Origin: Reyranella sp. CPCC 100927
Lineage (GTDB): Bacteria; Pseudomonadota; Alphaproteobacteria; Reyranellales; Reyranellaceae
Length of the DNA stretch: 64,000 nucleotides
Assembly (NCBI RefSeq): GCF_007859315.1
Contig: NZ_VOHA01000018.1
Coordinates: forward strand, 1-64,000
Direction of reading: 5' to 3'
This document shows positions 16,839 to 29,254 of the stretch, piece after piece. The notes under the pieces are model-generated. The model was given only the letters and a program-made list of their open reading frames with translations. It was not told where the DNA came from and did not search any database. Both the position numbers and the translations under genes were made by a program. Each line of letters starts with the position of its first letter. Within the stretch, counting starts at the first letter, position 1.

Positions 16839-17750
16839 ATGCCGAGCCCGCAATCGGCTGCGTTGAAATCCTTGTACGCGAGTTGGTCGGCTGCCTTGGC
16901 CGAGAACCCGACCATGCCGCTGGACGACCTGCGGCGCATGTTCGACCACTGGGGCGATGTCACCGGCGAACCCGGCGGCGTCGACTACATCGAAGTCGAT
17001 GCCGGCGGCATTCCCGCGATGTGGGCTGTCCCCAAGAACTGTGACCCGGACCGGGTCGTGCAGTGCACGCATGGTGGCGGCTACGTCACCGGATCGATGT
17101 ACACGCACCGCAAAGTGTACGGACATTTCGCCAAGGCGATCGGCTGCCGCGCGCTTATTCCCGACTACCGGCGCGCGCCCGAGCATGTCCATCCGGCGCC
17201 CGTCGACGATGCGACGCGCAGCTATCGCTGGCTGCTGGATCAGGGCATCAGGCCGCAGCATGTCGCCTTCACGGGCGACTCGGCCGGCGGCGCGCTCGCC
17301 GTCACGACGCTGTTGCGCGCACGCGAGCAGCGCCTGCCCTCGCCGGCCGCAACCATGCCCCTGTCGCCCTGGCTCGACATGGAGGCGGCGGCGCCGACCT
17401 TCAGTTCGAACCGCGACCGGGATGCATTGGTCCAGCGCGAGATCGTGTTGGGCATGGCGAGTACCTTCCTGGGCGAAGGCGGCAATCCCAAGGACAGTCT
17501 GGCCAATCCGCTGCTGGCAGACCTGCGCGGCCTGCCGCCCATGTACATCCAAGTCGGCGGCGACGAAACACTGCTCGACGACAGCCGCGCGCTGGCCGAC
17601 AAGGCACGCCGCGCCGGCGTCGACGTCACGCTCGAGATCGAGCCCGAGATGCAGCACGTCTACCACTTCCTCGCCGGCCGCGCGCCGGAAGCAGACGCCG
17701 CCATTGGCCGCCTCGCCACCTGGGTCCGCCCCAAGCTTGGGCTGGGTTGA
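16839..17750 (+). CDS. Alpha/beta hydrolase, hormone-sensitive lipase family (esterase)
   Basis: A 303-residue esterase. It has the HSL-family oxyanion motif as HGGGYVTGS (about residue 76), the nucleophile elbow GDSAGGALA (about residue 148), an acidic residue in GGDETLLDDS and the catalytic His in EPEMQHVYHF. It would hydrolyse a short acyl ester in the cytoplasm. CGGAGGA precedes ATG 16839. It is first in a sigma-54-controlled unit with the flavin-dependent oxidoreductase at 17903; a monooxygenase making an ester and an esterase splitting it would fit, but the substrate is not shown by sequence. Confidence 0.92.
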   Translation: MPSPQSAALKSLYASWSAALAENPTMPLDDLRRMFDHWGDVTGEPGGVDYIEVDAGGIPAMWAVPKNCDPDRVVQCTHGGGYVTGSMYTHRKVYGHFAKAIGCRALIPDYRRAPEHVHPAPVDDATRSYRWLLDQGIRPQHVAFTGDSAGGALAVTTLLRAREQRLPSPAATMPLSPWLDMEAAAPTFSSNRDRDALVQREIVLGMASTFLGEGGNPKDSLANPLLADLRGLPPMYIQVGGDETLLDDSRALADKARRAGVDVTLEIEPEMQHVYHFLAGRAPEADAAIGRLATWVRPKLGLG

Positions 17751-17756
17751 TTTTCC

Positions 17757-17881
17757 CTTCCCCACGCAAGCGTGGGGAAGGTGGCCGAAGGCCGGATGGG
17801 GAGTCGACGTGATCTCAGTTACCAAGATCACCACGGCTCCCCTCCGCCCCTTCGGGGCACCTCCCCAACTTCGTTGGGGAG
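17757..17881. repeat. Dispersed palindromic repeat, class E copy 1
   Basis: A perfect 11-bp stem CTTCCCCACGC-AA-GCGTGGGGAAG (17757-17780) at one end and CTCCCCAAC-TTC-GTTGGGGAG (17861-17881) at the other flank a centre with GCCGAAGGC and CCCCTTCGGGG hairpins. It lies between two genes of the same sigma-54 unit. Related elements occur at 38657-38799 and 39979-40174. Confidence 0.8.
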
Positions 17882-17902
17882 GAACATGAAGGAGGGAACG
17901 CC

Positions 17903-19192
17903 ATGAAGTTCATGCTCTTCGTCTTGCCGACGGTACCCGCTTCGCTGGAGGATCGCGAACGGCTGCGGCCGATCGGGCGCAACAACGAGCGCTACCAGCA
18001 GATGCTGGACGAACTGCGCAAGCTTGCCATGTTCGCCGACGACGCCGGTTTCGATGTGTTCGCAACCACGGAGCATCATTTCCATTCCGAAGGCTACGAG
18101 ACGTCGGTGGCGCCGCTGCTGCTCTATGCCGACCTCGCCGCACGCACCAAACGCATCAAGTTCTCGCCGCTGGGACTGGTGCTGCCGTCCTGGGATCCGA
18201 TCCGCGCTGCTGAAGAGCTGGCCGTTCTCGATCACCTGACCAAGGGCCGGATGTATGCCGGCTTCGCGCGCGGCTACCAGGATCGCTGGGTGAACGTGCT
18301 GGGGCAGCAGTACCACGTCACCGGCGCGCCGATGGACGGTTCCTCGATCGACAACCACAACCGCAAGGTCTACGAAGAGAATCTCAAGGTCATCCGCAAG
18401 GCGTGGACCGAGGAGTCGTTCGACTACGATGGCGAATACTACAAGGTGCCCTATCCCTACAAAGAAGGCATCACGCGCTGGCCGGTCCATGAATGGACGC
18501 GCAAGTTCGGTGCGCCGGGCGAGATCGACGACAACGGTGTGATCCGCAAGATCTCTGTCGTGCCGCGACCCTATCAGGAACCGCACCCGCCGCTGTTCCA
18601 GCCCTTCTCGGTCAGCGAGAACACCATCCGCTACACGGCGCAGTCGAGCATCGTTCCCTGGATCCTGGTCTCCCATCCGCCCGACTTCCAGCGCCTGTGC
18701 GGGGTCTATCGCGACGTAGCCGGCCAGGCCGGGCGCAAGCTGGGACTGGGCGAGGGAGTCGGCGCTTTCCGCGCCGTCCATTTCGGCAAGACCGAGGCCG
18801 AGGCCGTCGACCTGCTGCGCCGCACGAACTTCGCCGGCTTCAACCACTATTTCGGCGGCTTCGGGTTCTGGGAGGCCTTCCGCACGCCCGAGGACCTCGC
18901 CAAATACCCAGCCAACCCGTTCACACCCCTGCCACCGTCGGAGTGGACGCTGGAGCGCATGCGCAAGGTCAAGTACGCGTTGGCCGGGACCGTGGACCAG
19001 GTGAAGGCTGAGATCGAGGCGCTGCACAAGGTCGGTGGCGATGGCGACCTCGAATGGTTCGGCTGGTTCTTCGACCAGGGCTTCATGTCGTGGGACGAGG
19101 AAATGCGCCAGATCGAGATGTTCGCCAAGCACATCATCCCGGCCTTCCGCTCCACCTCGAGTCCGCCGACGCGGGCCAAGGAGAAGGTGTAG
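17903..19192 (+). CDS. LLM-class flavin-dependent oxidoreductase (luciferase-like)
   Basis: A 429-residue bacterial-luciferase-fold flavoenzyme, expected to use reduced FMN supplied by a partner reductase to oxygenate or oxidise a substrate. Family features: MKFMLFVLPTVP start, the FATTEHHFHSEGY segment (about residue 53), RIKFSPLGLVLPSWDPIRAAEELA (residues about 85-108, typical of the family) and GKTEAEAVDLL in the C-terminal half. GGAGGG lies just upstream of ATG 17903. It shares the sigma-54 promoter with the esterase and is followed by a strong terminator, so it closes the unit. No flavin reductase gene is adjacent. Confidence 0.9.
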   Translation: MKFMLFVLPTVPASLEDRERLRPIGRNNERYQQMLDELRKLAMFADDAGFDVFATTEHHFHSEGYETSVAPLLLYADLAARTKRIKFSPLGLVLPSWDPIRAAEELAVLDHLTKGRMYAGFARGYQDRWVNVLGQQYHVTGAPMDGSSIDNHNRKVYEENLKVIRKAWTEESFDYDGEYYKVPYPYKEGITRWPVHEWTRKFGAPGEIDDNGVIRKISVVPRPYQEPHPPLFQPFSVSENTIRYTAQSSIVPWILVSHPPDFQRLCGVYRDVAGQAGRKLGLGEGVGAFRAVHFGKTEAEAVDLLRRTNFAGFNHYFGGFGFWEAFRTPEDLAKYPANPFTPLPPSEWTLERMRKVKYALAGTVDQVKAEIEALHKVGGDGDLEWFGWFFDQGFMSWDEEMRQIEMFAKHIIPAFRSTSSPPTRAKEKV

Positions 19193-19216
19193 AAACAGAG
19201 CCGAGTTGTCGCAGCG

Positions 19217-19249
19217 GGACGCGCCACGGGGTGGCGCGTCCTTTTTTTT
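19217..19249 (+). terminator. Strong intrinsic terminator
   Basis: GGACGCGCCAC-GGG-GTGGCGCGTCC, a perfect 11-bp stem with a 3-base loop, is followed by eight T residues (19242-19249). It begins 25 bases after the stop of the flavin oxidoreductase gene and separates the sigma-54 unit from the ECF42 regulon. Confidence 0.95.
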
Positions 19250-19287
19250 GAGCGCGACCGCCCGCCGCCGCTTTTTTCCACAGTCTT

Positions 19288-19315
19288 TGTCGGAGTCCGG
19301 CATGCGCTGTCGTCC
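19288..19315 (+). promoter_or_regulatory. ECF42-type promoter 1 (autoregulatory, YCII-sigma operon)
   Basis: TGTCGG (19288-19293), 17 bases, CGTCC (19311-19315). The same two boxes with exactly the same 17-base spacing occur at three other gene starts nearby. It lies 25 bases before the first YCII gene and drives the operon that includes the sigma factor itself. Confidence 0.8.
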
Positions 19316-19340
19316 TTGAGACAACGACGATGGGACAGCC

Positions 19341-19709
19341 ATGCTCTATGCCATCTTTTGCTACAATTCCGAGGCGGATGTCGGTGCCATGACACAGGAG
19401 GAGGATGCCGCGCTGACGGCCAAGCTGCGCATCGTCGAGGACAGGCTGGTCGCCGGCGGAACACTGGGCCCCTCCGCACGCCTGCAACCGACGACCGCCG
19501 CCAAGACCCTGCGCTTCGGCCCCCGGTTTCAGCTGGTCGACGGCCCCTTCGCCGAAACCAAGGAGCAGCTTCTGGGTTTCTATATCGTAAACTGCGCGAC
19601 GTTCGAGGACGCCGTCGACGCGGCCCGGGTGCTGGCCCTTCCCCGCACCTCGGGTGCGCTCGAGATCCGGCCGATCGAGTCGTTCTCCCTGGGGAGCAGC
19701 CTGCCGTGA
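19341..19709 (+). CDS. YCII-related (DGPF) protein 1
   Basis: A 122-residue single-domain YCII/DGPF protein, ferredoxin-like fold, function unknown. Seen: MLYAIFCYNSEADV start, LQPTTAAKTLR, the name-giving DGPFAETKEQLLGFYIV, and the C-terminal GALEIRPIESF. Genes of this family are the standard neighbours of ECF42 sigma factors. Its TGA overlaps the GTG start of the sigma gene (19706-19709), so the two are translationally coupled and probably act together. Confidence 0.92.
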   Translation: MLYAIFCYNSEADVGAMTQEEDAALTAKLRIVEDRLVAGGTLGPSARLQPTTAAKTLRFGPRFQLVDGPFAETKEQLLGFYIVNCATFEDAVDAARVLALPRTSGALEIRPIESFSLGSSLP

Positions 19710-20983
19710 CCGATCTTGCCTGGATCGATGCCGCCCTGACATCCGCGCGTCCGCAAGCGATCGGCGCCTTGTTGCGCTACTTCCGCGATCTCGACGCGGC
19801 GGAAGAGGCCTACCAGGAGGCCTGCCTGCGGGCGCTGAAGACCTGGCCCGTCAAAGGCCCGCCACGTGACCCGACCGCCTGGCTGATCTTCGTCGGGCGC
19901 AACGTCACGCTCGACGAGGTCCGCCGCCGCAGCAAGCAGCAGGCCCTGCCGCCCGACGAGATCATATCGGACCTCGAGGATACCGAGACCGACGTCGCCG
20001 ACCGGCTCGACGCCTCGCACTACCGTGACGACGTGCTGCGCCTGCTGTTCATCTGCTGCCATCCGGATCTGCCGGCGACCCAGCAAATCCCGCTGGCGCT
20101 GCGCATCGTGTCCGGCCTGTCGGTCAAGGAGATCGCACGCGCCTTCCTGGTGAGCGAAAGCGCCATGGAACAGCGCATCACCCGCGCCAAGCGGCGGGTC
20201 GAGGCGGCCGACGTTCCGTTCGAGACCCCTGGTGCACCGGAACGGGCCGAGCGGCTCACCGCGGTCGCCACCATGATCTACCTGCTGTTCAACGAAGGCT
20301 ATTCGGCAAGCGGCGGCGATGTGCATGTCCGCGTGCCGCTGTGCGAGGAAGCGATCCGGCTGGCCCGGCTGCTGTTGCGGCTGTTCCCGGCCGAATGCGA
20401 GGTCATGGGCCTCACTGCGCTGCTTCTGTTGCAGCACGCGCGTACGGCGGCCCGCCTCGACGCCGATGGCGCCATCGTGCTGCTGGAGGATCAGGACCGC
20501 CGCCGTTGGAACAAGGGCCTGATCGCCGAAGGGCTTGTGCTAGTCGACAAGGCGCTGCGGCATCGGCGCCCCGGCCCCTATCAGGTACAAGCCGCGATCG
20601 CGGCAGTGCATTCCCGTGCCGTCCGACCGGAGGATACCGACTGGGCGGAGATCGACCAGCTCTATGCGGCGCTGGAGACCATGCAGCCCTCGCCGGTGAT
20701 CACGCTGAACCGCGCCGTGGCCGTCGCCAAGGTCCGTGGGCCGGCAGCGGCACTGGACTTGATCGAGCCGCTGGCCGTGCGACTGGATGGCTATTTCCAC
20801 TTTTTCGGCGTCAAGGGTGCGCTGCTGATCCAGCTGGATCGTGCCGAAGAGGCCCGGGTCGCCTTCGACCGCGCGATCGCGCTTGCCCGCACCGCCGCGG
20901 AGGCGGCCCATATCCGGCTTCACATTGATCGGCTGATCAAGGACCACCAGAAAAAAACCAAGGATAACAAGGCCTCGGCGTAG
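19706..20983 (+). CDS. ECF42-type RNA polymerase sigma factor with long C-terminal extension
   Basis: A 425-residue ECF sigma factor. Residues about 10-80 are region 2 (ALLRYFRDLDAAEEAYQEAC, then TAWLIFVGRNVTLDEVRRR); about 105-165 are region 4 with the helix-turn-helix VKEIARAFLVSESAMEQRI; residues about 180-425 are the DUF6596/TPR-like extension (YLLFNEGYSAS, LTALLLLQHARTAARLD, PSPVITLNRAVAVAKVRG). That extension and the coupled DGPF gene mark the ECF42 group, which lacks a classical anti-sigma factor and is thought to use the extension for control. Start GTG 19706 overlaps the YCII stop; the frame is open to 19316, but the overlap and family length favour 19706. Confidence 0.93.
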   Translation: MTDLAWIDAALTSARPQAIGALLRYFRDLDAAEEAYQEACLRALKTWPVKGPPRDPTAWLIFVGRNVTLDEVRRRSKQQALPPDEIISDLEDTETDVADRLDASHYRDDVLRLLFICCHPDLPATQQIPLALRIVSGLSVKEIARAFLVSESAMEQRITRAKRRVEAADVPFETPGAPERAERLTAVATMIYLLFNEGYSASGGDVHVRVPLCEEAIRLARLLLRLFPAECEVMGLTALLLLQHARTAARLDADGAIVLLEDQDRRRWNKGLIAEGLVLVDKALRHRRPGPYQVQAAIAAVHSRAVRPEDTDWAEIDQLYAALETMQPSPVITLNRAVAVAKVRGPAAALDLIEPLAVRLDGYFHFFGVKGALLIQLDRAEEARVAFDRAIALARTAAEAAHIRLHIDRLIKDHQKKTKDNKASA

Positions 20984-21014
20984 CCTGGGGTTACCCGGAA
21001 AAAAGCGAAGCCAT

Positions 21015-21042
21015 TGTCGGTTTGCCGCCCTGCCGTTCGTCC
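21015..21042 (+). promoter_or_regulatory. ECF42-type promoter 2
   Basis: TGTCGG (21015-21020), 17 bases, CGTCC (21038-21042), 41 bases before the first DUF899 gene. The boxes are extended alike in the other copies (TTGTCGG and TTCGTCCT). It should start the DUF899-GFA-hydrolase-YCII unit. Confidence 0.8.
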
Positions 21043-21082
21043 TCTGGGCGACGCATCTGGACGACGCCAACGGAGGATCGCC

Positions 21083-21784
21083 ATGGATCAGCCTCGTATC
21101 GTGTCTCGGGAGGAGTGGACCCGTGAGCGCAAGGCGCATCTGGCCAAGGAGAAAGAATTTACCCGGCTGCGCGACCAGCTGAGCGCCCAGCGTCGTGAGC
21201 TGCCCTGGGTCAAGGTCGACACCACCTACGTATTCGACACCCCGAAAGGGAAACAGACGCTGGCCGACCTGTTCGATGGCCGCAGCCAGCTGATCGTCTA
21301 CCATTTCATGCTCGGGCCCGATGACACGGAAGGCTGCCCCGGTTGCTCCTTCCTGGTCGACCACGTCGACGGTGCCAACCTGCATCTGGCACACCATGAC
21401 GTGACGTTCGTTGCCGTATCGCGGGCGCCGTTGGCCAAGCTCAAGGCGTACAAGAAGCGCATGGGCTGGCACTTCCCGTGGGTATCGTCCGGCAACACCA
21501 CCTTCAACTACGACTACAACGTGTCCTTCACCCAGGAGGACGTGGCAAAAGGCGCGGCCACCTATAACTATGAAAAGCTCGATGAGGCGATCGACGATCT
21601 GCCCGGCATCAGCGTCTTCTACAAGGATGCCAACGGCGACATCTTCCATACCTATTCCAGCTACGCCCGCGGCGGCGACATCCTGATCGGCGCCTACAAC
21701 TACCTCGACCTCACGCCGAAGGGCCGCAACGAATCGAGCACCATGGACTGGGTACGCCGGCACGACCGGTACGACACGCCGTAG
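21083..21784 (+). CDS. DUF899 thioredoxin-fold protein 1
   Basis: A 233-residue DUF899 protein. It has VSREEWTRERKAHLAKEKEF, the core YHFMLGPDDTEGCPGCSFL with a CPGC pair (about residue 92), HHDVTFVAVSRAPLAKL, and the C-terminal FHTYSSYARGGD and YLDLTPKGRNE patterns. The family is predicted to be thioredoxin-like; its substrate is unknown. GGAGG precedes ATG 21083. A paralogue lies at 23930-24634, and both have an ECF42-type promoter directly upstream. Confidence 0.9.
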   Translation: MDQPRIVSREEWTRERKAHLAKEKEFTRLRDQLSAQRRELPWVKVDTTYVFDTPKGKQTLADLFDGRSQLIVYHFMLGPDDTEGCPGCSFLVDHVDGANLHLAHHDVTFVAVSRAPLAKLKAYKKRMGWHFPWVSSGNTTFNYDYNVSFTQEDVAKGAATYNYEKLDEAIDDLPGISVFYKDANGDIFHTYSSYARGGDILIGAYNYLDLTPKGRNESSTMDWVRRHDRYDTP

Positions 21785-21800
21785 GATCGAAGAGGAACCG

Positions 21801-22202
21801 ATGAAGACCTATCGCGGCAGCTGCCATTGCGGCGCTGTTCAGTTCGAGTGCGACCTCGACTTGGCCGAAGGCACAAGCAAGTGCGACTGCTCGGCCTGCA
21901 CCAAGGGGCGGTTCTGGAAGGCGATCGCCAAGGCCGACGGCCTGCGTCTGCGGCGGGGTGAGGATGCGTTGACAGACTATCGTTTCGGCAGCGGGACCAT
22001 CCACCATCTCTTTTGCCGGACCTGTGGCGTGAAGGTGTTCGGCCGCGGTCATATGGAGGCACTGGGCGGCACCTTCTTCGCCATCAACCTCGCCTGCCTG
22101 GATGACGTGACGCCAGCGGAACTGTTGCAGGCCCCGATCGCCTATCAGGATGGCCGCAATAACAATTGGTCGTCGCCGCCCGCCGAAACGCGGCATCTCT
22201 GA
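21801..22202 (+). CDS. GFA family zinc-binding protein
   Basis: A 133-residue protein of the glutathione-dependent formaldehyde-activating (Gfa/CENP-V) family. Zinc-binding cysteines are seen in GSCHCGAVQFEC (about residue 9), CDCSACTKGRFW (about residue 30) and the later FCRTCGVKVFG. Members bind two zinc ions; a few add thiols to formaldehyde, most have unknown roles. It follows the DUF899 gene by 16 bases with a good AGAGGA ribosome binding site. Confidence 0.9.
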   Translation: MKTYRGSCHCGAVQFECDLDLAEGTSKCDCSACTKGRFWKAIAKADGLRLRRGEDALTDYRFGSGTIHHLFCRTCGVKVFGRGHMEALGGTFFAINLACLDDVTPAELLQAPIAYQDGRNNNWSSPPAETRHL

Positions 22203-22216
22203 CAGGGACGCCGGCG

Positions 22217-23404
22217 ATGACGCGATCACGGGGTTTCTCTCCCGCCCGGCTTGCCCGCATGACCGATGTCATGCGCCGGCAGGTCGAGCGCGGCATGATG
22301 GCCGGCGCGGTCATCGCGCTGGCGCGCCGCGACGACGTCCATGTCGAGGCGATCGGCCTGCGAGATCGCGATACGGGCGCACCGATGCAGCGCGACACGA
22401 TCTTCCGGATCGCGTCGATGACCAAACCTATCGCTGCGGCCGCCGCCATGCTGCTGGTCGAGGAGACGACGCTGCGGTTGGATGATCCGGTCGACCCGTT
22501 GCTGCCGGAACTTGCCGATCGCCGTGTATTGAAAAGGCTCGACGGCCCCCTCGACGATACCGTGCCGGCCAATCGGCCGATCACATTGCGTGACCTGCTG
22601 ACCATGTGCGCGGGCTTCGGCCTTATCATGGAGCCATCGGGCGACTATCCAGTCCAGAAGGCAGTGAACGCCGCCCGGATCGGCGTTGGGGTGAACCCGC
22701 CGCCTCACGCACCCGATGCGCTGATGAAGCACTACAACGCCCTGCCCCTGATGCATCAGCCGGGCGAGAAATGGCTGTACCACAGCAGCTACGACGTCCT
22801 GAGCGTGCTGGTGGCACGCGCCGCCGGCATGCCGTTCGAGGCTTTCCTGGCGGAACGGATGTTGATGCCGCTCGGCATGAAGGATACGGCATTCAACGTT
22901 CCCGACGCCAAACGCGACCGCCTGGCGACCGGTTACGAACACGATGGTCCAGCCGATCGACTCGTGGTCAGCAGCGAAGCCGACGTGGCGGGCATCGCCA
23001 GCGGCAGCGCCGGCCTGGTTTCAACGGTCGATGACTACCTCGCCTTTGGCCGCATGATGCTGCGCAGTGGTCGTCATGGAGCGCAGCGCATTCTGGCACG
23101 ACCAACCGTGGAGGTGATGACGACCGACCAGGTGACGCCGGCACAGAAGGCGGCTTCGCCCTTCGTTCCCGGCTTCTGGGACAATCGCGGTTGGGGCTTC
23201 GGTGTCTCCATGACGACGCGCCGCGACAGCATCGCCGCATCGCCGGGCCGCTACGGCTGGGATGGTGGATTTGGGACGTCCTGGTGGTGCGATCCACACG
23301 AGGACTTGGTTGCCATCCTGCTGACCCAGCGCCTGTTCGACCCAGTCGTCGATGGCATCTTCTCGGATTTCGCAACACTGGTCTATCAAGCGATCGACGA
23401 TTGA
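22217..23404 (+). CDS. Serine hydrolase, beta-lactamase family (class C fold)
   Basis: A 395-residue beta-lactamase/esterase-fold enzyme. The catalytic SxxK is SMTK in RIASMTKPIAAAAAM (about residue 76); the Tyr motif is YHSSYDV (about residue 194); an HGAQ-like segment and GWGFGVSM follow, and GWDGGFGTSWW replaces the KTG strand, as in the EstB/PBP-related group. No signal peptide is evident, so a cytoplasmic esterase is more likely than a true beta-lactamase. Start at ATG 22217, 15 bases after the GFA gene. It is part of the second ECF42-promoted unit. Confidence 0.88.
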   Translation: MTRSRGFSPARLARMTDVMRRQVERGMMAGAVIALARRDDVHVEAIGLRDRDTGAPMQRDTIFRIASMTKPIAAAAAMLLVEETTLRLDDPVDPLLPELADRRVLKRLDGPLDDTVPANRPITLRDLLTMCAGFGLIMEPSGDYPVQKAVNAARIGVGVNPPPHAPDALMKHYNALPLMHQPGEKWLYHSSYDVLSVLVARAAGMPFEAFLAERMLMPLGMKDTAFNVPDAKRDRLATGYEHDGPADRLVVSSEADVAGIASGSAGLVSTVDDYLAFGRMMLRSGRHGAQRILARPTVEVMTTDQVTPAQKAASPFVPGFWDNRGWGFGVSMTTRRDSIAASPGRYGWDGGFGTSWWCDPHEDLVAILLTQRLFDPVVDGIFSDFATLVYQAIDD

Positions 23405-23441
23405 TTGTACAAGCAGGCGGCACCAACCGAACCGAGGCCAT

Positions 23442-23807
23442 ATGCTTTACGCCATCTTCATCTACGGTCCCGAGGCCGAAGTCGCGTCCTGGAACGAGAA
23501 GCAGCATGCCGACGTTGTCACCGAGCACACGGTCCTGCGGGAGAAGCTGACCGCGCAGGGCAAAGTCGGCCCCGTGGTGCGCCTGATGCCCACCACGACC
23601 GCAGTCACGGTGCGCAAAGGCAACGAACCGGTTGTCATCGACGGCCCGTTTGCCGAAACCAAGGAGCAGCTGCTGGGCCTCTATACGGTCGACTGTGCCA
23701 CGCTGGACGAAGCGATCGACATTGCGAAGGCCATGCCGTGGGGCACTTTCGAGATTCGCCCGGTCTTCCGGTTCTTCCCGGGAGCCGCCTTGCCGGAACA
23801 AGCCTGA
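23442..23807 (+). CDS. YCII-related (DGPF) protein 2
   Basis: A 121-residue YCII protein, paralogous to the one at 19341: MLYAIFIYGPEAEVASW start, LMPTTTAVTVRKG, DGPFAETKEQLLGLYTVDC, and TFEIRPVFRFFPG at the end. Function unknown. ATG 23442 aligns with the start of its paralogue; upstream in-frame codons belong to the preceding gene's end. It closes the unit driven from 21015; the next ECF42-type promoter begins 35 bases after its stop. Confidence 0.92.
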   Translation: MLYAIFIYGPEAEVASWNEKQHADVVTEHTVLREKLTAQGKVGPVVRLMPTTTAVTVRKGNEPVVIDGPFAETKEQLLGLYTVDCATLDEAIDIAKAMPWGTFEIRPVFRFFPGAALPEQA

Positions 23808-23841
23808 AAATCAAATCGGCTGCAGAAAATATCACCGTCGC

Positions 23842-23869
23842 TGTCGGCACGTCATCGCGTCGTTCGTCC
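23842..23869 (+). promoter_or_regulatory. ECF42-type promoter 3
   Basis: TGTCGG (23842-23847), 17 bases, CGTCC (23865-23869), with the same TTCGTCCT extension as copies 2 and 4. It lies 61 bases before the second DUF899 gene, on the coding strand. Confidence 0.8.
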
Positions 23870-23929
23870 TGTGAGTAGCCGCCACGATCCTGGTGCTCGG
23901 GGTGGCAACCCAGGCGGCAGGAGCGTGCG

Positions 23930-24634
23930 ATGGACGGTTCGAGAGTGGTATCCCCCAACGACTGGCTGGCGGCACGCCGGCAGCTCCTGGAACGCGAGAG
24001 AGAGCTCATCCGGCTACGCGATGAGGTGAGCACAGCGCGGCGGAACCTGCCGCGCGTGCGGGTCACCAAGCCCTATGTCTTCGACGGGCCCAACGGCAGG
24101 GAAACCCTGGCGGATCTCTTCGGCAAGCGCCGCCAACTGATCATCTACCACTTCATGTTCGGGCCGGGCTGGAAAGAAGGCTGCGTGGGATGTTCGTTCC
24201 TGGCCGATCATATCGACGGCCTGCGCGTGCACATTGCCCACCGCGATATCTCCCTGGTGGTCGTCGCACGTGCCCCGATGCCTCAGATCGAAGCCTTCCA
24301 GGAGCGAATGGGTTGGCGCTTCAGGTGGGTGTCGTCATCCGGCAGCGACTTCAACTACGACTATCACGTCTCGTTCACGCGCAACGACATGATCGCGGGC
24401 CTCGTCTACTACAACTACGAAATCCGCGAGTTCATGAGCGAGGACCTGCCCGGCGTCAGCGTTTTCTACAAGGATGACGCCGGCGGCATCTTCCACACCT
24501 ACTCCGCCTATGGCCGCGATGCGGAGTCCCTGTGCGGCGCCTACAGCTACATCGACCTGACGCCGCTGGGCCGCCAGGAGGAAGAAGGCCATTGGCAGGC
24601 GTGGGTGCGTCACCACGATCGGTATATCGACTAG
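23930..24634 (+). CDS. DUF899 thioredoxin-fold protein 2
   Basis: A 234-residue DUF899 paralogue of the protein at 21083. It shares VSPNDWLAARRQLLERERE, YHFMFGPGWKEGCVGCSFL with a CVGC pair, HRDISLVVVARAPMPQI, FHTYSAYGRDAESL and YIDLTPLGRQEEE. Function unknown; likely a soluble thiol or redox protein. AGGAG precedes ATG 23930. It is followed by the third YCII gene after 46 bases; the pair repeats the DUF899-YCII pairing seen upstream. Confidence 0.9.
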   Translation: MDGSRVVSPNDWLAARRQLLERERELIRLRDEVSTARRNLPRVRVTKPYVFDGPNGRETLADLFGKRRQLIIYHFMFGPGWKEGCVGCSFLADHIDGLRVHIAHRDISLVVVARAPMPQIEAFQERMGWRFRWVSSSGSDFNYDYHVSFTRNDMIAGLVYYNYEIREFMSEDLPGVSVFYKDDAGGIFHTYSAYGRDAESLCGAYSYIDLTPLGRQEEEGHWQAWVRHHDRYID

Positions 24635-24680
24635 GCGTTCCCGAAACCGTCGCGCTGGCCACATGCCGCAAGGACGTCCC

Positions 24681-25040
24681 ATGAAATACCTGTGCCTCGT
24701 CTACCTTGACGAGACGAAACTCGATACGCTCTCTCGCAGCGAGTCAGCGACCCTGGTCAAGGAGTCCGTCGGATACGACGACGTACTGCGCCAGAGCAAC
24801 CATCTCATCGTTGCGCATGCTCTCAAGCCGACCAAGTCCGCCCGAACCGTGCGGGTCCGAAAGGGTCGCGTGCTCAAGACCGACGGTCCCTTCGCGGAGA
24901 CCAAGGAACAACTCATCGGTTTCCTGCTGATCACCGCCAAGGACATGGACGACGCTGTTGCCGTCGCCGCCAAGATTCCATTGGCCCACATGGGAAGCAT
25001 CGAGGTGAGACCGATCCAAACGGCCGGCGATTCATCCTGA
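24681..25040 (+). CDS. YCII-related (DGPF) protein 3
   Basis: A 119-residue YCII protein: MKYLCLVYLDETKLDTL start, KPTKSARTVRVRKG, TDGPFAETKEQLIGFLLIT and GSIEVRPIQTAG. It is more divergent than the other two and belongs to the YciI subgroup beginning MKYLCL. ATG 24681 was preferred over 24663 because it matches that start. It has no ECF42-type promoter of its own and is probably transcribed with the second DUF899 gene. Confidence 0.92.
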   Translation: MKYLCLVYLDETKLDTLSRSESATLVKESVGYDDVLRQSNHLIVAHALKPTKSARTVRVRKGRVLKTDGPFAETKEQLIGFLLITAKDMDDAVAVAAKIPLAHMGSIEVRPIQTAGDSS

Positions 25041-25055
25041 ACCGGTCCGTCGTTT

Positions 25056-25083
25056 TGTCGATCCGCCCCGATGTCATTCGTCC
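25056..25083 (+). promoter_or_regulatory. ECF42-type promoter 4
   Basis: TGTCGA (25056-25061), 17 bases, CGTCC (25079-25083), 37 bases before the epoxide hydrolase ATG. The -35 box is the exact TGTCGA reported for ECF42 targets in Streptomyces; the other three copies have TGTCGG. Its position also excludes the upstream in-frame start codons of the hydrolase gene. Confidence 0.8.
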
Positions 25084-25120
25084 TCGGATGGAATCCCTGA
25101 CGGAGGCCCCGAGCAGTATC

Positions 25121-26392
25121 ATGACGAACGAACACAATGCACAGCACTGCAGCGACATCAAATTGCGGCGGCGCACCATGCTGCTCGCCGGCAGTGCGGC
25201 GACGGTCATCGCGGGCGTGCGCGCTTCACACCAGGCCGTCGCACAAGCGGGCCCCGGTCCGATCACCGCCTTCACGTGGCGGGCACCGCAAAGCGCCCTT
25301 GATGACCTGAAACGGCGTCTCGACCAGGTGCGCTGGCCAGAGCACGAAACCGTGACCGATTGGTCGCAGGGCGTCCCGCTCGCCCGACTCCGCGCCCTGG
25401 TCGAGCACTGGCGCACCACGTATGACTGGCGCCGCTGCGAGGCGGCTCTCAACGGCCTGGGGCAGTACAAGACCCTGATCGACGGGCTCGACATCCACTT
25501 CCTGCATGTGCGCTCACCGCACGCCAACGCCCTGCCAATCATCCTCACTCACGGTTGGCCGGGGTCGGTGATCGAGTTCCTCAAGGCCATCCCGCTGCTG
25601 ACCAACCCCACGGCGCACGGTGGGCGCGCCGAAGACGCCTTCCATGTCGTGGTGCCGTCGCTGCCGGGATTCGGTTTCTCCGGCAAGCCGGCAGAACGCG
25701 GTTGGAACGCCGAGCGGATCGCCCGAGCCTGGGCCGAACTGATGCGGCGCCTGGGTTATAGCCGCTATGTCGCCCAAGGTGGTGACTGGGGTGCCTTTGT
25801 GACCACCGCCCTGGCGCTGCAGCGTCCGGCAGGACTCGCCGCCATCCATCTCAATATGCCGCTGGTGCTGCCGCAGCCGCTACCGACGACCGGGTCATCC
25901 CCAGTCGAGACGCGTGCGATCGCGGAGCTGACACGCTTCCTGCAGGACGGCGCAGGGTATTTCCAGATCCAGGCGACCCGCCCGCAGACGATCGGCTATG
26001 CGCTGGTGGATTCCCCGGTGGGCCTTGCGGCCTGGATCTATGAAAAATTCCATGCCTGGACCGATAACAAGGGCGATCCGGAGACGGCGCTGACCCGCGA
26101 CGAGATGTTGGACGACATCACGCTCTACTGGTTGACGGAGACAGCCGCTTCATCGGCGCGCATCTATTTCGAGCAGGCCGCCACCGGCATCTTCGGCGTG
26201 GTCGTCGACTTCCCGGTGGGCTGCAGTGTCTTTCCGCGCGAGATCGTGACGGCGCCGCGGAGTTGGGCCGAACGCGTCTACCCCAAGCTGATCCATTGGA
26301 ATGAGCTCGACCGCGGCGGTCATTTCGCGGCGTTCGAGCAGCCCGTGCTGTTCGCACAGGAATTGCGCACGTGTTTCCGCTCCTTGCGCTGA
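25121..26392 (+). CDS. Epoxide hydrolase family protein with Tat-like signal
   Basis: A 423-residue alpha/beta-hydrolase of the epoxide hydrolase group. The N-terminal KLRRRTMLLAGSAATVIAG, ending at AVAQAG, looks like a Tat signal peptide, so the enzyme is probably periplasmic. The EHN cap region (residues about 45-150) precedes HGWPGSVIEF (oxyanion HGxP), the nucleophile Asp in GGDWGAFVTT, and the catalytic His in RGGHFAAFEQP. It would hydrate an epoxide to a diol. Start at ATG 25121, downstream of the promoter; GGAGG lies 14 bases upstream, rather far. It is the last gene with an ECF42-type promoter. Confidence 0.9.
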   Translation: MTNEHNAQHCSDIKLRRRTMLLAGSAATVIAGVRASHQAVAQAGPGPITAFTWRAPQSALDDLKRRLDQVRWPEHETVTDWSQGVPLARLRALVEHWRTTYDWRRCEAALNGLGQYKTLIDGLDIHFLHVRSPHANALPIILTHGWPGSVIEFLKAIPLLTNPTAHGGRAEDAFHVVVPSLPGFGFSGKPAERGWNAERIARAWAELMRRLGYSRYVAQGGDWGAFVTTALALQRPAGLAAIHLNMPLVLPQPLPTTGSSPVETRAIAELTRFLQDGAGYFQIQATRPQTIGYALVDSPVGLAAWIYEKFHAWTDNKGDPETALTRDEMLDDITLYWLTETAASSARIYFEQAATGIFGVVVDFPVGCSVFPREIVTAPRSWAERVYPKLIHWNELDRGGHFAAFEQPVLFAQELRTCFRSLR

Positions 26393-26407
26393 TAACGCTT
26401 GACCTGA

Positions 26408-26431
26408 CGGGGCACTTCCGCCGGTGCCCCG
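26408..26431 (+). terminator. Hairpin after the epoxide hydrolase gene
   Basis: CGGGGCAC (26408-26415) pairs exactly with GTGCCCCG (26424-26431) around an 8-base loop, 15 bases past the stop. There is no T-run, so it may be a weak or Rho-assisted end of the ECF42 regulon. Confidence 0.5.
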
Positions 26432-26479
26432 CAGTTCCTATGTTTCCGGTGACCAGGAGACAGCAATGGAGGATTCGCC

Positions 26480-26761
26480 ATGAAAGCGATTTGGCGTGGC
26501 CAAGTCATCGCCGACAGCGACCAGACCCTCGAGGTCGACGGCTACCGGTACTTTCCGCGCGACGCGGTGCGCATGGATCTGCTGCGGTCGACGCCCAAGA
26601 CCGAGAACGATCTGAAGTGCCCGCATGGCGTGCAGTTCTACGACGTCGCCGACGGTGCCGCCAGCAGCCCACGGGCTGCGTGGTCTTACGAGGCGCCGCG
26701 GGCCGCCATGAAACCGGTCGATCATTGGATCGGCTTTTGGGAAGACGTCGAGATCAGTTGA
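26480..26761 (+). CDS. DUF427 domain protein
   Basis: A 93-residue DUF427 protein. Seen: MKAIWRGQVIADSDQTLEVDGYRYFP, the central CPHGVQFYDV, and DHWIGFWEDV at the C-terminus, which fit the usual 90-residue DUF427 domain. Function unknown. ATG 26480 is preceded by a GGAG-like site. It is cotranscribed with, or at least on the same strand as, the following GNAT gene 38 bases later. Confidence 0.88.
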   Translation: MKAIWRGQVIADSDQTLEVDGYRYFPRDAVRMDLLRSTPKTENDLKCPHGVQFYDVADGAASSPRAAWSYEAPRAAMKPVDHWIGFWEDVEIS

Positions 26762-26798
26762 TCACGGTCGGCCTGCGCCGACGTCGGATGGAGGGATC

Positions 26799-27380
26799 AT
26801 GACGTCTGTCGTATCAAACATTGCACCCGCCGACGCCGAGCGCGCGTTTCAGGTCGTTCTGCGCGCGTTCGAGCGCGATCCCATGGCCCGCTGGTCGTTT
26901 CCCGACGCGCAAACCTATCACGATCACTTCCCCGTCGTGATCCGGGCGCTCGGGGGCCGATCCTTCGCCCAGGGTGGCGCCCATGAAGTCGACGGGTACG
27001 CCGGCGTCGCCTTGTGGCTACCGCCCGGTGTCGAGCCGGATCACGAGACCCTTGAGGCCCTCATGACCACCAGTGACCCGACACCGCTTCAGCGCGAGGT
27101 CGCTGCCGTCGTGGAGCAGATGGCGCATTACCATCCCCCCGAGCCGCATTGGTTTCTGCCGTTCATCGCCGTCGACCCGGCGCATCAGCACAAGGGGCAT
27201 GGATCGACACTACTGGCGCATGCACTGCGCCAGTGCGACCGCGACCACCTGCCGGCCTATCTGGAGTCGAGCAACCTCGCCAACATTCCGCTGTACCAGC
27301 GCCATGGCTTCGAGGTTCTGGGCACCATCCAGGTCGGGTCCTCGCCACCGCTGACCCCCATGCTCCGCAAGGCCCGCTGA
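26799..27380 (+). CDS. GNAT family N-acetyltransferase
   Basis: A 193-residue acetyl-CoA-dependent acetyltransferase. The acetyl-CoA pyrophosphate loop is VDPAHQHKGHGSTLLAHAL (Q-x-x-G-x-G), preceded by the strand HWFLPFIAV; the last part YLESSNLANIPLYQRHGFEVL is typical. The substrate is unknown. GGAGG precedes ATG 26799. No ECF42-type promoter was found upstream of it. Confidence 0.9.
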   Translation: MTSVVSNIAPADAERAFQVVLRAFERDPMARWSFPDAQTYHDHFPVVIRALGGRSFAQGGAHEVDGYAGVALWLPPGVEPDHETLEALMTTSDPTPLQREVAAVVEQMAHYHPPEPHWFLPFIAVDPAHQHKGHGSTLLAHALRQCDRDHLPAYLESSNLANIPLYQRHGFEVLGTIQVGSSPPLTPMLRKAR

Positions 27381-27477
27381 CAGCGAGCGCGCCATCGCGA
27401 TCACGTGAACCGGCGTCACTGGACCCGGTTCGTCTTACAGGCAGACAAATCGCCAACCATCGTCGCAACGGAGGTTG

Positions 27478-27897
27478 ATGATGGACGAAGCCCTGGCACG
27501 TGCCCTGTCGCGGGCGCTTCTGGTGCTGCGCATCACCCTGGGCGTTTTCCTGCTCCAATGGGGCGTGGAGAAGTTCGTGGTGCCGCAGAATACCACCGCG
27601 ATCTGGGGTTACTTCTATGGCCTCAACGTCTCGCAGAGCGTGGGGTACGTGTTTGGCGTCGCCGAGATCGCCATTGCGCTCTGCCTCTTCCTCGGCCTGT
27701 TTCGCACGATCGCCTATGGCGCTGCGGTGGCCCTGCACACGCTCAGCGTGGTCGTGTCCTGGCGCCAGCTCATCAATCCATGGGCGGATGATTTCAGCCA
27801 TCTGTTCATCGCCGGCGTGCCCGTTCTGGGCGCGATGATCGCCCTCTTTCTGCTGCGGCACTGGGATCGCGGCGTCATGGCGCAGAAACCGGCGTAG
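27478..27897 (+). CDS. DoxX-like four-helix membrane protein
   Basis: A 139-residue inner-membrane protein of the DoxX type. Four hydrophobic segments are seen: ALLVLRITLGVFLLQWGVEK, VFGVAEIAIALCLFLGLF, YGAAVALHTLSVVVSW and LFIAGVPVLGAMIALFLL. The first is followed by FVVPQNTTAIWG. The role of such proteins is uncertain; some act with oxidoreductases or in thiosulfate or stress metabolism. GGAGG precedes the tandem ATGs at 27478/27481. Confidence 0.82.
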   Translation: MMDEALARALSRALLVLRITLGVFLLQWGVEKFVVPQNTTAIWGYFYGLNVSQSVGYVFGVAEIAIALCLFLGLFRTIAYGAAVALHTLSVVVSWRQLINPWADDFSHLFIAGVPVLGAMIALFLLRHWDRGVMAQKPA

Positions 27898-27928
27898 CGA
27901 AACGCAGCCCACATAATCATTTTCGTAA

Positions 27929-27958
27929 TTGACAATGATTTCCAATTATGGAAATCAT
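27929..27958 (+). promoter_or_regulatory. Promoter with ArsR-type operator palindrome
   Basis: TTGACA (27929-27934) is a perfect -35 box, directly followed by ATGATTTCC-AATTAT-GGAAATCAT (27935-27958), a perfect 9-bp inverted repeat with a 6-bp spacer that fills the space down to the expected -10. A dimer bound there would block RNA polymerase. It heads the operon that encodes an ArsR repressor as its second gene, so autorepression is likely. Confidence 0.72.
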
Positions 27959-27990
27959 ATGCCATCGCCAATGTCTTCATGAGGCCTGCC

Positions 27991-28437
27991 ATGACCATCA
28001 CGATCGTGCCCGCCTTGAGCTATGCCGATCCCAACGCTGCCGTCGCTTTTCTCGAGGCGGCGTTCGGCTTCGAACCCGGGCTCAGCGTCACCGACTCCGA
28101 AGGGCGCGTGCAGCACGCCGAGCTCACCTACGGCAACGGCCGGATCATGCTGGGGATAGCGGACTGGGCTGACTGGGCGAAAAGCCCCAAGGCGGTGTCG
28201 GGCGCCAACACGCAATGCGTTCATGTCGAGGTGGGCGACGTCGACAAGCATTGCGCGCGAGCGCGCGCCGCGGGCGCCGAGATCCTGGCCGAGCCGACCG
28301 ACCAGTTCTACGGCCACCGCACCTATCGCGCCCGCGATTGCGAAGGCCATGTGTGGACGTTCGCGCAGCCGGTGCGTGAGGTCTCGCCGGCAGAAATGGA
28401 AGCCGCCACCGGCCTCAAGGTCAGGGAACGGCCGTGA
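27991..28437 (+). CDS. VOC family (glyoxalase-like) protein
   Basis: A 148-residue vicinal-oxygen-chelate fold protein: TITIVPALSYADPNAAVAFLEAAFGFEPG start, then AELTYGNGRIMLGI, HVEVGDVDKHCARARAAGA and TYRARDCEGHVWTFAQPV, with a metal-ligand-like His and Glu. It could be a glyoxalase, bleomycin-resistance-like binder or dioxygenase relative. ATG 27991 is chosen because GAGG lies 6 bases before it; ATG 27979 is in frame but lacks one. Its TGA overlaps the GTG of the ArsR gene, and it is the first gene after the operator. Confidence 0.88.
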   Translation: MTITIVPALSYADPNAAVAFLEAAFGFEPGLSVTDSEGRVQHAELTYGNGRIMLGIADWADWAKSPKAVSGANTQCVHVEVGDVDKHCARARAAGAEILAEPTDQFYGHRTYRARDCEGHVWTFAQPVREVSPAEMEAATGLKVRERP

Positions 28438-28775
28438 CATCACCGGACATCGACCGGACGCTGGCGGCACTGGCCGATCCGGTACGCCGGCAGACCATCG
28501 ACATGCTGCGCCGCGGGCCGCGACGGCCCGCCGAACTGGCTGCCGCGTTCGACGTGAGCGGACCAGTGATGAGCAAGCACCTGCGCGTGCTGCGCAAGGG
28601 CCGGCTGATCGAGGAAGTGGCGGTCGAAGACGACGCGCGCATGCGGCTCTACCGCCTGCGGCCGGAGCCGTTCGAGGGCCTGGGTGAGTGGCTCGAGCAG
28701 GTGCAGGCCTTCTGGAACGATCAGCTCGGCGCCTTCAAGGATCATGTCGCACGCAAGCAGCGGGGCGGCCGGTGA
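28434..28775 (+). CDS. ArsR family transcriptional regulator
   Basis: A 113-residue winged-helix repressor. The region DIDRTLAALADPVRRQTIDML with the recognition helix VSGPVMSKHLRVLRKGRLIEEV is typical of the ArsR subgroup that pairs with SRPBCC (AHSA1) proteins. No metal-binding CxC motif is seen, so a metal sensor is unlikely. It begins with GTG 28434 overlapping the VOC stop and ends overlapping the next GTG (28772-28775); it probably represses the palindromic promoter at 27929-27958. Confidence 0.92.
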   Translation: MTSPDIDRTLAALADPVRRQTIDMLRRGPRRPAELAAAFDVSGPVMSKHLRVLRKGRLIEEVAVEDDARMRLYRLRPEPFEGLGEWLEQVQAFWNDQLGAFKDHVARKQRGGR

Positions 28776-29254
28776 GCGCCAAGGTGATGGTGGCGGTCAC
28801 GGTCGCAGCCGATCCCGTCACGGCATTCGAGATCTTCACGCAGGAGGTCGATGCGTGGTGGCGGCATGGGCCGAAGTACCGCTTCCGCGGCAAGAGGTCC
28901 GGCATCATGCGGTTCGAGCCCGGCGTCGGCGGCCGGCTGGTCGAAGTCTACGACGCGGCAGCCGGCGATCTATTCGAGGTCGGCAAGATCCTGACGTGGG
29001 AACCGGGCGCGCGCCTCGCCTTCGAGTGGAAAGGCCCGAACTATCGCCCCGGCCAGGTGACCATGGTCGAGGTCCGCTTCATCGCGACGCAGGACGGCAC
29101 GCGGGTCGTCGTCGAGCACAGTGGCTGGGAGAGCCTGCCGGCTGGGCACCCGGCGCGCCACGGCATGAACGAGGTGCCGTTCCTTCACAGCATGGCCGGC
29201 TGGTGGCGCGAACAGCTCGCCAGCGTGAAGGCACACGACCGGAGGACTCCATGA
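28772..29254 (+). CDS. SRPBCC family protein (AHSA1-like)
   Basis: A 160-residue START/SRPBCC-fold protein with a hydrophobic ligand pocket: VAVTVAADPVTAFEIFTQEV, a VDAWWRHGPKYRFRG segment, FEPGVGGRLVEVYD, and the C-terminal GWWREQLASVKAH. Such proteins are standard partners of this ArsR subgroup. The GTG start at 28772 overlaps the ArsR TGA, and its stop overlaps the methyltransferase ATG, so all are translationally coupled. Confidence 0.9.
   Translation: MSAKVMVAVTVAADPVTAFEIFTQEVDAWWRHGPKYRFRGKRSGIMRFEPGVGGRLVEVYDAAAGDLFEVGKILTWEPGARLAFEWKGPNYRPGQVTMVEVRFIATQDGTRVVVEHSGWESLPAGHPARHGMNEVPFLHSMAGWWREQLASVKAHDRRTP

Follow-up and report, generated by a model that had tools for sequence, protein, structure and literature searches.

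The window analysed here, 64,000 nucleotides of the alphaproteobacterium Reyranella sp. CPCC 100927 (contig NZ_VOHA01000018.1, positions 1 to 64,000), carries an ECF42-type sigma factor gene and four promoter-like sites of the form TGTCG(G/A), 17 bases, CGTCC. These very probably belong to an ordinary ECF42 system whose sigma factor would read TGTCGG-N17-CGTCCT and would serve a large predicted regulon of about 14 units, four in the window and ten unlinked to it. Computation on the sequences showed the boxes and how they are spaced, placed, conserved and associated with the sigma clade, and from this we infer that RNA polymerase with the ECF42 sigma factor would recognise TGTCGG-N17-CGTCCT, with transcription beginning approximately 8 bases past the box, a position taken from Sinorhizobium meliloti. 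The sigma factor would probably drive its own YCII-sigma unit and the three further window units, and would also drive about ten scattered units encoding mostly small detoxification-like family proteins, the predicted families being VOC, AHSA1/SRPBCC, DUF899, YCII, DoxX, RibD_C, DUF1428, DUF1801, YceI, GFA and epoxide hydrolase. Activity would probably be gated by the C-terminal extension of the sigma factor, with YCII proteins perhaps involved, rather than by an anti-sigma factor.

The sigma locus and its predicted promoter boxes

When both strands of the window were scanned, TGTCG(G/A)-N17-CGTCC was matched four times, always on the + strand and always with exactly 17 bases between the boxes: promoter 1 at 19288..19315, promoter 2 at 21015..21042, promoter 3 at 23842..23869 (all TGTCGG) and promoter 4 at 25056..25083 (TGTCGA). 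Shuffled windows gave a mean of 0.23 matches (standard deviation 0.49), with four matches reached in 0 of 100 shuffles, and a scan for TGTCGR-N17-CGTCYT with up to one mismatch gave no additional window site. As a first-pass annotation of this DNA had stated, each site lies ahead of the first gene of a unit, the distance from box end to start codon being 25 bases for promoter 1 (YCII, ATG 19341), 40 for promoter 2 (DUF899, ATG 21083), 60 for promoter 3 (DUF899, ATG 23930) and 37 for promoter 4 (epoxide hydrolase, ATG 25121). Another ATG in the same frame, at 25088, is only 4 bases past the box of promoter 4; if this box is a promoter, translation more likely begins at 25121. The description of the four promoters as identical does not hold, as the spacers differ, the sixth base of the -35 box is A in promoter 4 alone among the window sites, and promoter 1 has no TT ahead of CGTCC. 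Promoters 2, 3 and 4 match the strict form TGTCGR-N15-TTCGTCC, which is the same spacing with TT before CGTCC.

The units behind the promoters, grouped by gene order, all lie on the + strand. Unit 1 encodes a YCII-domain protein of 122 amino acids (19341..19709; Pfam PF03795, 55.2 bits) and the sigma factor of 425 amino acids (19706..20983), whose GTG start at 19706 overlaps the YCII stop; the sigma factor had been described as encoded by the first unit, which is correct, although the unit begins with YCII and the sigma gene comes second. Unit 2 encodes the first DUF899 protein (21083..21784; PF05988, 334 bits), a GFA-family protein (21801..22202; PF04828, 56.6 bits), a serine beta-lactamase-fold hydrolase (22217..23404; PF00144, 228 bits) and a second YCII protein (23442..23807; found by Pfam, 47% identical to the first in pairwise comparison). 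The hydrolase is probably an esterase, judging by a best NCBIfam match to the methyl acetate hydrolase AcmB (144.6 bits, under the cut-off of 550). Unit 3 consists of a second DUF899 gene (23930..24634; found by Pfam, product 55% identical to the first in pairwise comparison) and a third YCII gene (24681..25040; PF03795, 72.2 bits), and unit 4 of a gene for an epoxide-hydrolase-like alpha/beta hydrolase (25121..26392; PF06441, 130 bits on the frame from 25088) with a twin-arginine-like leader, read by eye.

The sigma factor has regions 2 and 4 of the ECF type (Sigma70_r2, PF04542, 45 bits; Sigma70_r4_2, PF08281, 42 bits) and matches TIGR02937 with 53.4 bits, above the cut-off of 42.9. Its C-terminal extension of about 200 residues contains DUF6596 at 183-283 and retains conserved columns to about residue 410 in an alignment of 27 sequences. 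Pfam found no anti-sigma gene among the 10 proteins of 17903-26392 and, in the sigma factor, no match to the SnoaL_2-type C-terminal domain that marks ECF41. The predicted membership of ECF42, already proposed in the first-pass annotation, is well supported by the extension, the YCII gene that overlaps the sigma start, the lack of a neighbouring anti-sigma gene and the promoter taken together. Searched as single sequences, neither the sigma factor nor the first DUF899 protein had a solved relative at E 0.001; a profile search of solved structures with the sigma factor returned ECF sigma domains, plus weak matches of designed proteins near the profile end.

To count the motif across the genome (9.08 Mb, 81 contigs), each pattern was compared with its reversed form as control. 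TGTCGR-N17-CGTCC gave 39 matches against 11 in the control, many inside genes, and was rejected as too noisy to serve alone as a genome-wide predictor; of its 28 matches without TTCGTCC, 3/14 with TGTCGG (including window promoter 1) and 4/14 with TGTCGA were scored as preceding genes. The strict form TGTCGR-N15-TTCGTCC gave 11 matches against 0, with three in the window and eight elsewhere. When the spacer before TTCGTCC was varied over 15 lengths there were 29 matches against 8 for the reversed control, N15 accounting for 11 of the 29 and the other 14 spacings together for 18 (Poisson p 1e-7). Script-scored placement just before genes was found for 9/11 strict sites against 1/18 at other spacings (Fisher 5e-5), and two strict sites missed by the script (L100, L102) were assigned by hand, through reading frames and Pfam, to the YceI gene of C34:142999 and the AHSA1 gene of C45:115337, giving 11/11 against 1/18 (Fisher 3.5e-7). 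Two control sites that the script had left unassigned were read in the same way, one being ambiguous (L099) and the other without a convincing gene (L107). The claim that the sites exceed chance is thus upheld by the window shuffles, the spacing peak and the placement; the claim that the regulon is self-contained has to be given up, as 8/11 strict sites lie elsewhere, before VOC, DoxX, AHSA1, RibD_C, DUF1801, YceI and DUF1428 genes.

These unlinked strict sites precede a VOC gene (C10:88353), a DoxX-like gene (C12:478043), AHSA1 followed by a GNAT gene (C23:36205), a RibD_C gene (C23:79313), DUF1801 (C27:34008), YceI followed by VOC (C34:142999), a second AHSA1 gene (C45:115337) and a DUF1428 gene (C45:426314). 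Two less strict sites, at C36:3233 before a gene for a 3-dmu-9_3-mt/VOC protein and at C12:433166 before DUF1801, complete the ten. The relaxed form TGTCGG-N17-CGTCYT had 16 matches in the genome against 5 in the control.

Two features flank the array. Between a luciferase-like monooxygenase gene and promoter 1 lies a hairpin resembling an intrinsic terminator (19216..19242, + strand), with a 12-pair stem and a T run; the same scan found 4 terminator-like sites against 5.7 expected in shuffles, so this one is argued by its strength and place only. Downstream, at 26480-29254, are DUF427, GNAT, DoxX and VOC genes, then ArsR-like and SRPBCC-like genes (by eye); their families are akin to those of the regulon, yet a scan that allowed one mismatch gave no ECF42 box ahead of them.

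Conservation and co-occurrence with the sigma clade

The comparison of ECF42 promoters in relatives that had been suggested as a check was made by a sigma scan of named genomes, taking the best 80 of 468 confirmed stretches and seeking a site within 700 bases upstream of the sigma gene. TGTCGR-N17-CGTC was found in 73 of these 80 loci, with every other spacing occurring at most twice, and the site ended in CGTCCT or CGTCTT in 66. At the 17 close loci, defined by a sigma factor at least 65% identical and including the window's own, TGTCGG-N17-CGTCC was present in the 1.5 kb upstream of sigma in 17/17, in one case (L028) 825 bases upstream. Arrays of co-directional sites also recur, with at least three sites in 12 and at least four in 5 of the best 80 loci, and none of the 12 loci with at least three sites had one on the opposite strand.

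By sigma, the closest named relative among the matches listed was Vineibacter terrae, also of the Alphaproteobacteria (88% identity), which has a single site 371 bases upstream of its sigma gene. The other window units were not found in the 5 kb after this gene, so either the window genome has gained the DUF899 and epoxide hydrolase units or V. terrae has lost them. Between box and sigma gene V. terrae has a short frame (L122, 4630-5004) with a YCII-like beginning that then diverges; it is no regular YCII gene, and the YCII partner seems to be disrupted there. In the same searches, contigs titled Mycobacterium sp. KBS0706 (L177) and Frankia sp. RB7 (L144) encoded sigma factors 75% and 73% identical to the alphaproteobacterial one of the window, and the names on those contigs may be wrong.

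Unlinked sites are retained as well. In six genomes of the family, genes for proteins 67-74% identical to the AHSA1 protein of C45 have a strict site ahead of them, and in one genome (G001) a strict site precedes a protein 90% identical to the AHSA1 protein of C23; among annotated strict sites in relatives, 10/43 were inside called genes (41 loci). ECF42 factors are widespread, and a specific promoter turns a genome sequence into a list of targets, here of approximately 14 units including an AHSA1 target whose site is kept in six relatives. Expression tests could start from defined promoters, and DUF899, DUF1428 and similar poorly understood families gain a common regulatory context.

Co-occurrence was examined in an evenly drawn set of 387 alphaproteobacterial genomes, each with a completeness of 90% or more. 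Of these, 29 had the sigma clade (E <1e-190), 43 had other ECF42-like sigma factors only (E up to 1e-60) and 315 had neither; the clade boundary was placed at a gap in the scores once both tables had been seen. The pattern TGTCGG-N15-TTCGTCCT, narrower than the TGTCGR pattern of an earlier 61-genome test and picked after it, was present in 18/29, 0/43 and 4/315 genomes of the three classes, with 36, 0 and 4 sites (controls 1, 1 and 6). Fisher's test gave 6e-19 with the window genome left out, a value that overstates independence as the genomes are related. In the 29 clade genomes TGTCGG-N17-CGTCYT had 172 matches against 42 in controls, the window genome having the most; with 13 in G343 and 11 in G403 close behind its 16, 'largest' is a statement about this sample only. 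In the 61-genome set, the strict TGTCGR pattern gave 39 sites in 14/17 clade genomes (controls 2), 3 sites in 3 of the four genomes with sigma factors 43-55% identical, and 2 sites in 2/25 genomes without ECF42 (controls 4).

Competing readings and a second ECF42 unit

Several observations weigh against the reading of the boxes as promoters of a large ECF42 regulon. The bases ahead of CGTCC and the final bases vary among relatives, 11/29 sigma-clade genomes have no strict site, and in the 61-genome set those with only distant ECF42 factors had 12 strict sites in 5/15 genomes (controls 5). Of these 12, all of which were counted, seven come from near-identical repeats in G007 and G013 and three (G007, G009, G011) from a single conserved intragenic sequence. 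The contrast inside the family was weaker in that set (12/15 against 7/21, p 0.008). In the window genome, no convincing target lies behind the TGTCGG-N17-CGTCYT matches at C4:172102, C12:432675 and C34:53151, and the DUF1801 gene behind the perfect site at C27:34008 (L097) has a broken reading frame, which may be an assembly error or decay. TPR detection in the sigma C-terminus is weak (TPR_2, 14.9 bits, E 0.031, under the cut-off of 27). Finally, the unit of RpoE10, the ECF42 factor of S. meliloti, begins with SMc01151, whose box overlaps the mapped start and which overexpressed RpoE10 did not raise (PMC6180224). The near-identical copies, five in G007 and two in G013, of one sequence that matches the strict pattern (L062, L080, L231, L232) look like a dispersed repeat and not promoters.

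The missing response of SMc01151 also bears on whether the YCII-sigma unit is autoregulated. The box could be weak or vestigial and the unit transcribed by the housekeeping sigma factor, as any regulator needs basal expression; we consider this somewhat unlikely, given that the box upstream of sigma is retained in 73 of the best 80 named relatives. A scan of 17500-27500 likewise found no sigma-70-type promoter, with 1.5 expected, although that consensus tells little in a G+C-rich alphaproteobacterium.

A second ECF42-like sigma factor, 40% identical to the first, is encoded at C12:574150 with a YCII gene ahead of it (C12:573598-575289; L020, L022), and this unit carries its own TGTCGA-N17-CGTCC site. 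Among 14 more distant ECF42 loci, including this one, an upstream site was found in 11 and had TGTCGA in 10/11, against TGTCGG in 17/17 loci of the close clade. The Streptomyces venezuelae ECF42 promoters reportedly have TGTCGA at -35 and CG(A/T)C at -10. As promoter 4 has TGTCGA, the second sigma factor, or both, might drive some of the promoters and promoter 4 in particular; on balance we judge such sharing unlikely, as promoter 4 shares the ending TTCGTCCT with the unlinked strict sites, and TGTCGG-N15-TTCGTCCT was absent from all 43 genomes with other ECF42-like sigma factors only.

Taken as a mark of the second sigma factor, TGTCGATT-N15-CGTC had 5 matches in the genome and 0 in the control; four of the five precede genes (VOC, SDR, EipB-like and the second YCII-sigma unit) and one, at C45:470470, is inside a gene. 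The four may form the regulon of the second sigma factor, which probably reads the TGTCGA version. This suggests two parallel regulons in the window genome, one base apart, and promoter 4, with TGTCGA plus TTCGTCCT, could answer to either sigma factor. More broadly, and tentatively, with the balance of probability tipping slightly against it, a scattered ECF42 programme in many Alphaproteobacteria may join YCII, DUF899, DUF1428, DUF1801, AHSA1, VOC, DoxX and YceI proteins, of unknown role, in one electrophile or xenobiotic response, with genomes that hold two ECF42 factors parting their regulons by one -35 base, TGTCGG or TGTCGA according to clade.

That the boxes are a chance or codon-usage artefact of a G+C-rich genome, as the often intragenic matches to the looser TGTCGR-N17-CGTCC pattern might suggest, is extremely improbable and was rejected, being contradicted by the window shuffles, spacing peak, placement, conservation and co-occurrence.

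Comparison with known ECF42 systems

The first-pass annotation had stressed an ECF42 programme in an alphaproteobacterium rather than an actinobacterium, a setting that is not surprising; RpoE10 of S. meliloti is an ECF42 factor of an alphaproteobacterium whose boxes and spacing are already published (PMC6180224). Table 1 of that study gives promoters of SMc01149, SMc01151 and SMb20475 with TGTCGG, 17 bases and CGTC(C), and the marked start of SMc01149 lies 8 bases past CGTCC (PMC6180224; spacing and distance counted in this analysis). The S. meliloti and window systems thus have in common the promoter boxes, the N17 spacing and a YCII-related gene upstream of the sigma gene. Overexpression of RpoE10 increased the expression of six genes, and by at least 2-fold for four, which belong to two operons (PMC6180224), against the approximately 14 units predicted in the window genome. 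The RpoE10 targets are on two replicons and include ligand-binding and glyoxalase-like proteins, a likeness to the predicted regulon; the available text of PMC6180224 names no RpoE10 target of the DUF899, GFA, epoxide hydrolase, DoxX, YceI or DUF1428 families.

Members of the ECF42 group are described as having a TPR-rich C-terminal extension of about 200 residues and a conserved YCII neighbour (PMC8999054). S. venezuelae Sven_0747, Sven_7131 and Sven_4377 share this extension length with the window sigma factor, which also has the YCII neighbour of the group; the review leaves the interaction partner of ECF42 unidentified (PMC8999054). Pseudomonas putida ECF-10 belongs to the same group, has a genomic context said to resemble that of rpoE10, and is reported to have a stress and biofilm phenotype (PMC8999054, PMC6180224). 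No genome-wide ECF42 regulon study besides that of S. meliloti was found in the open-licence literature.

A counterpart to the array itself is the ECF42 locus of Chelativorans salis (L158), where five co-directional sites precede, by the first gene at each site read by eye, a YCII-like gene with the sigma gene, two more YCII-like genes, one DUF899-like gene and one VOC-like gene. It differs from the window in gene order and in its first site, which ends in CGTCTT. As RpoE10 shares both boxes and spacing with the window sites, the window system would be a further case of a known kind, and what would set it apart from that of S. meliloti is the larger predicted regulon.

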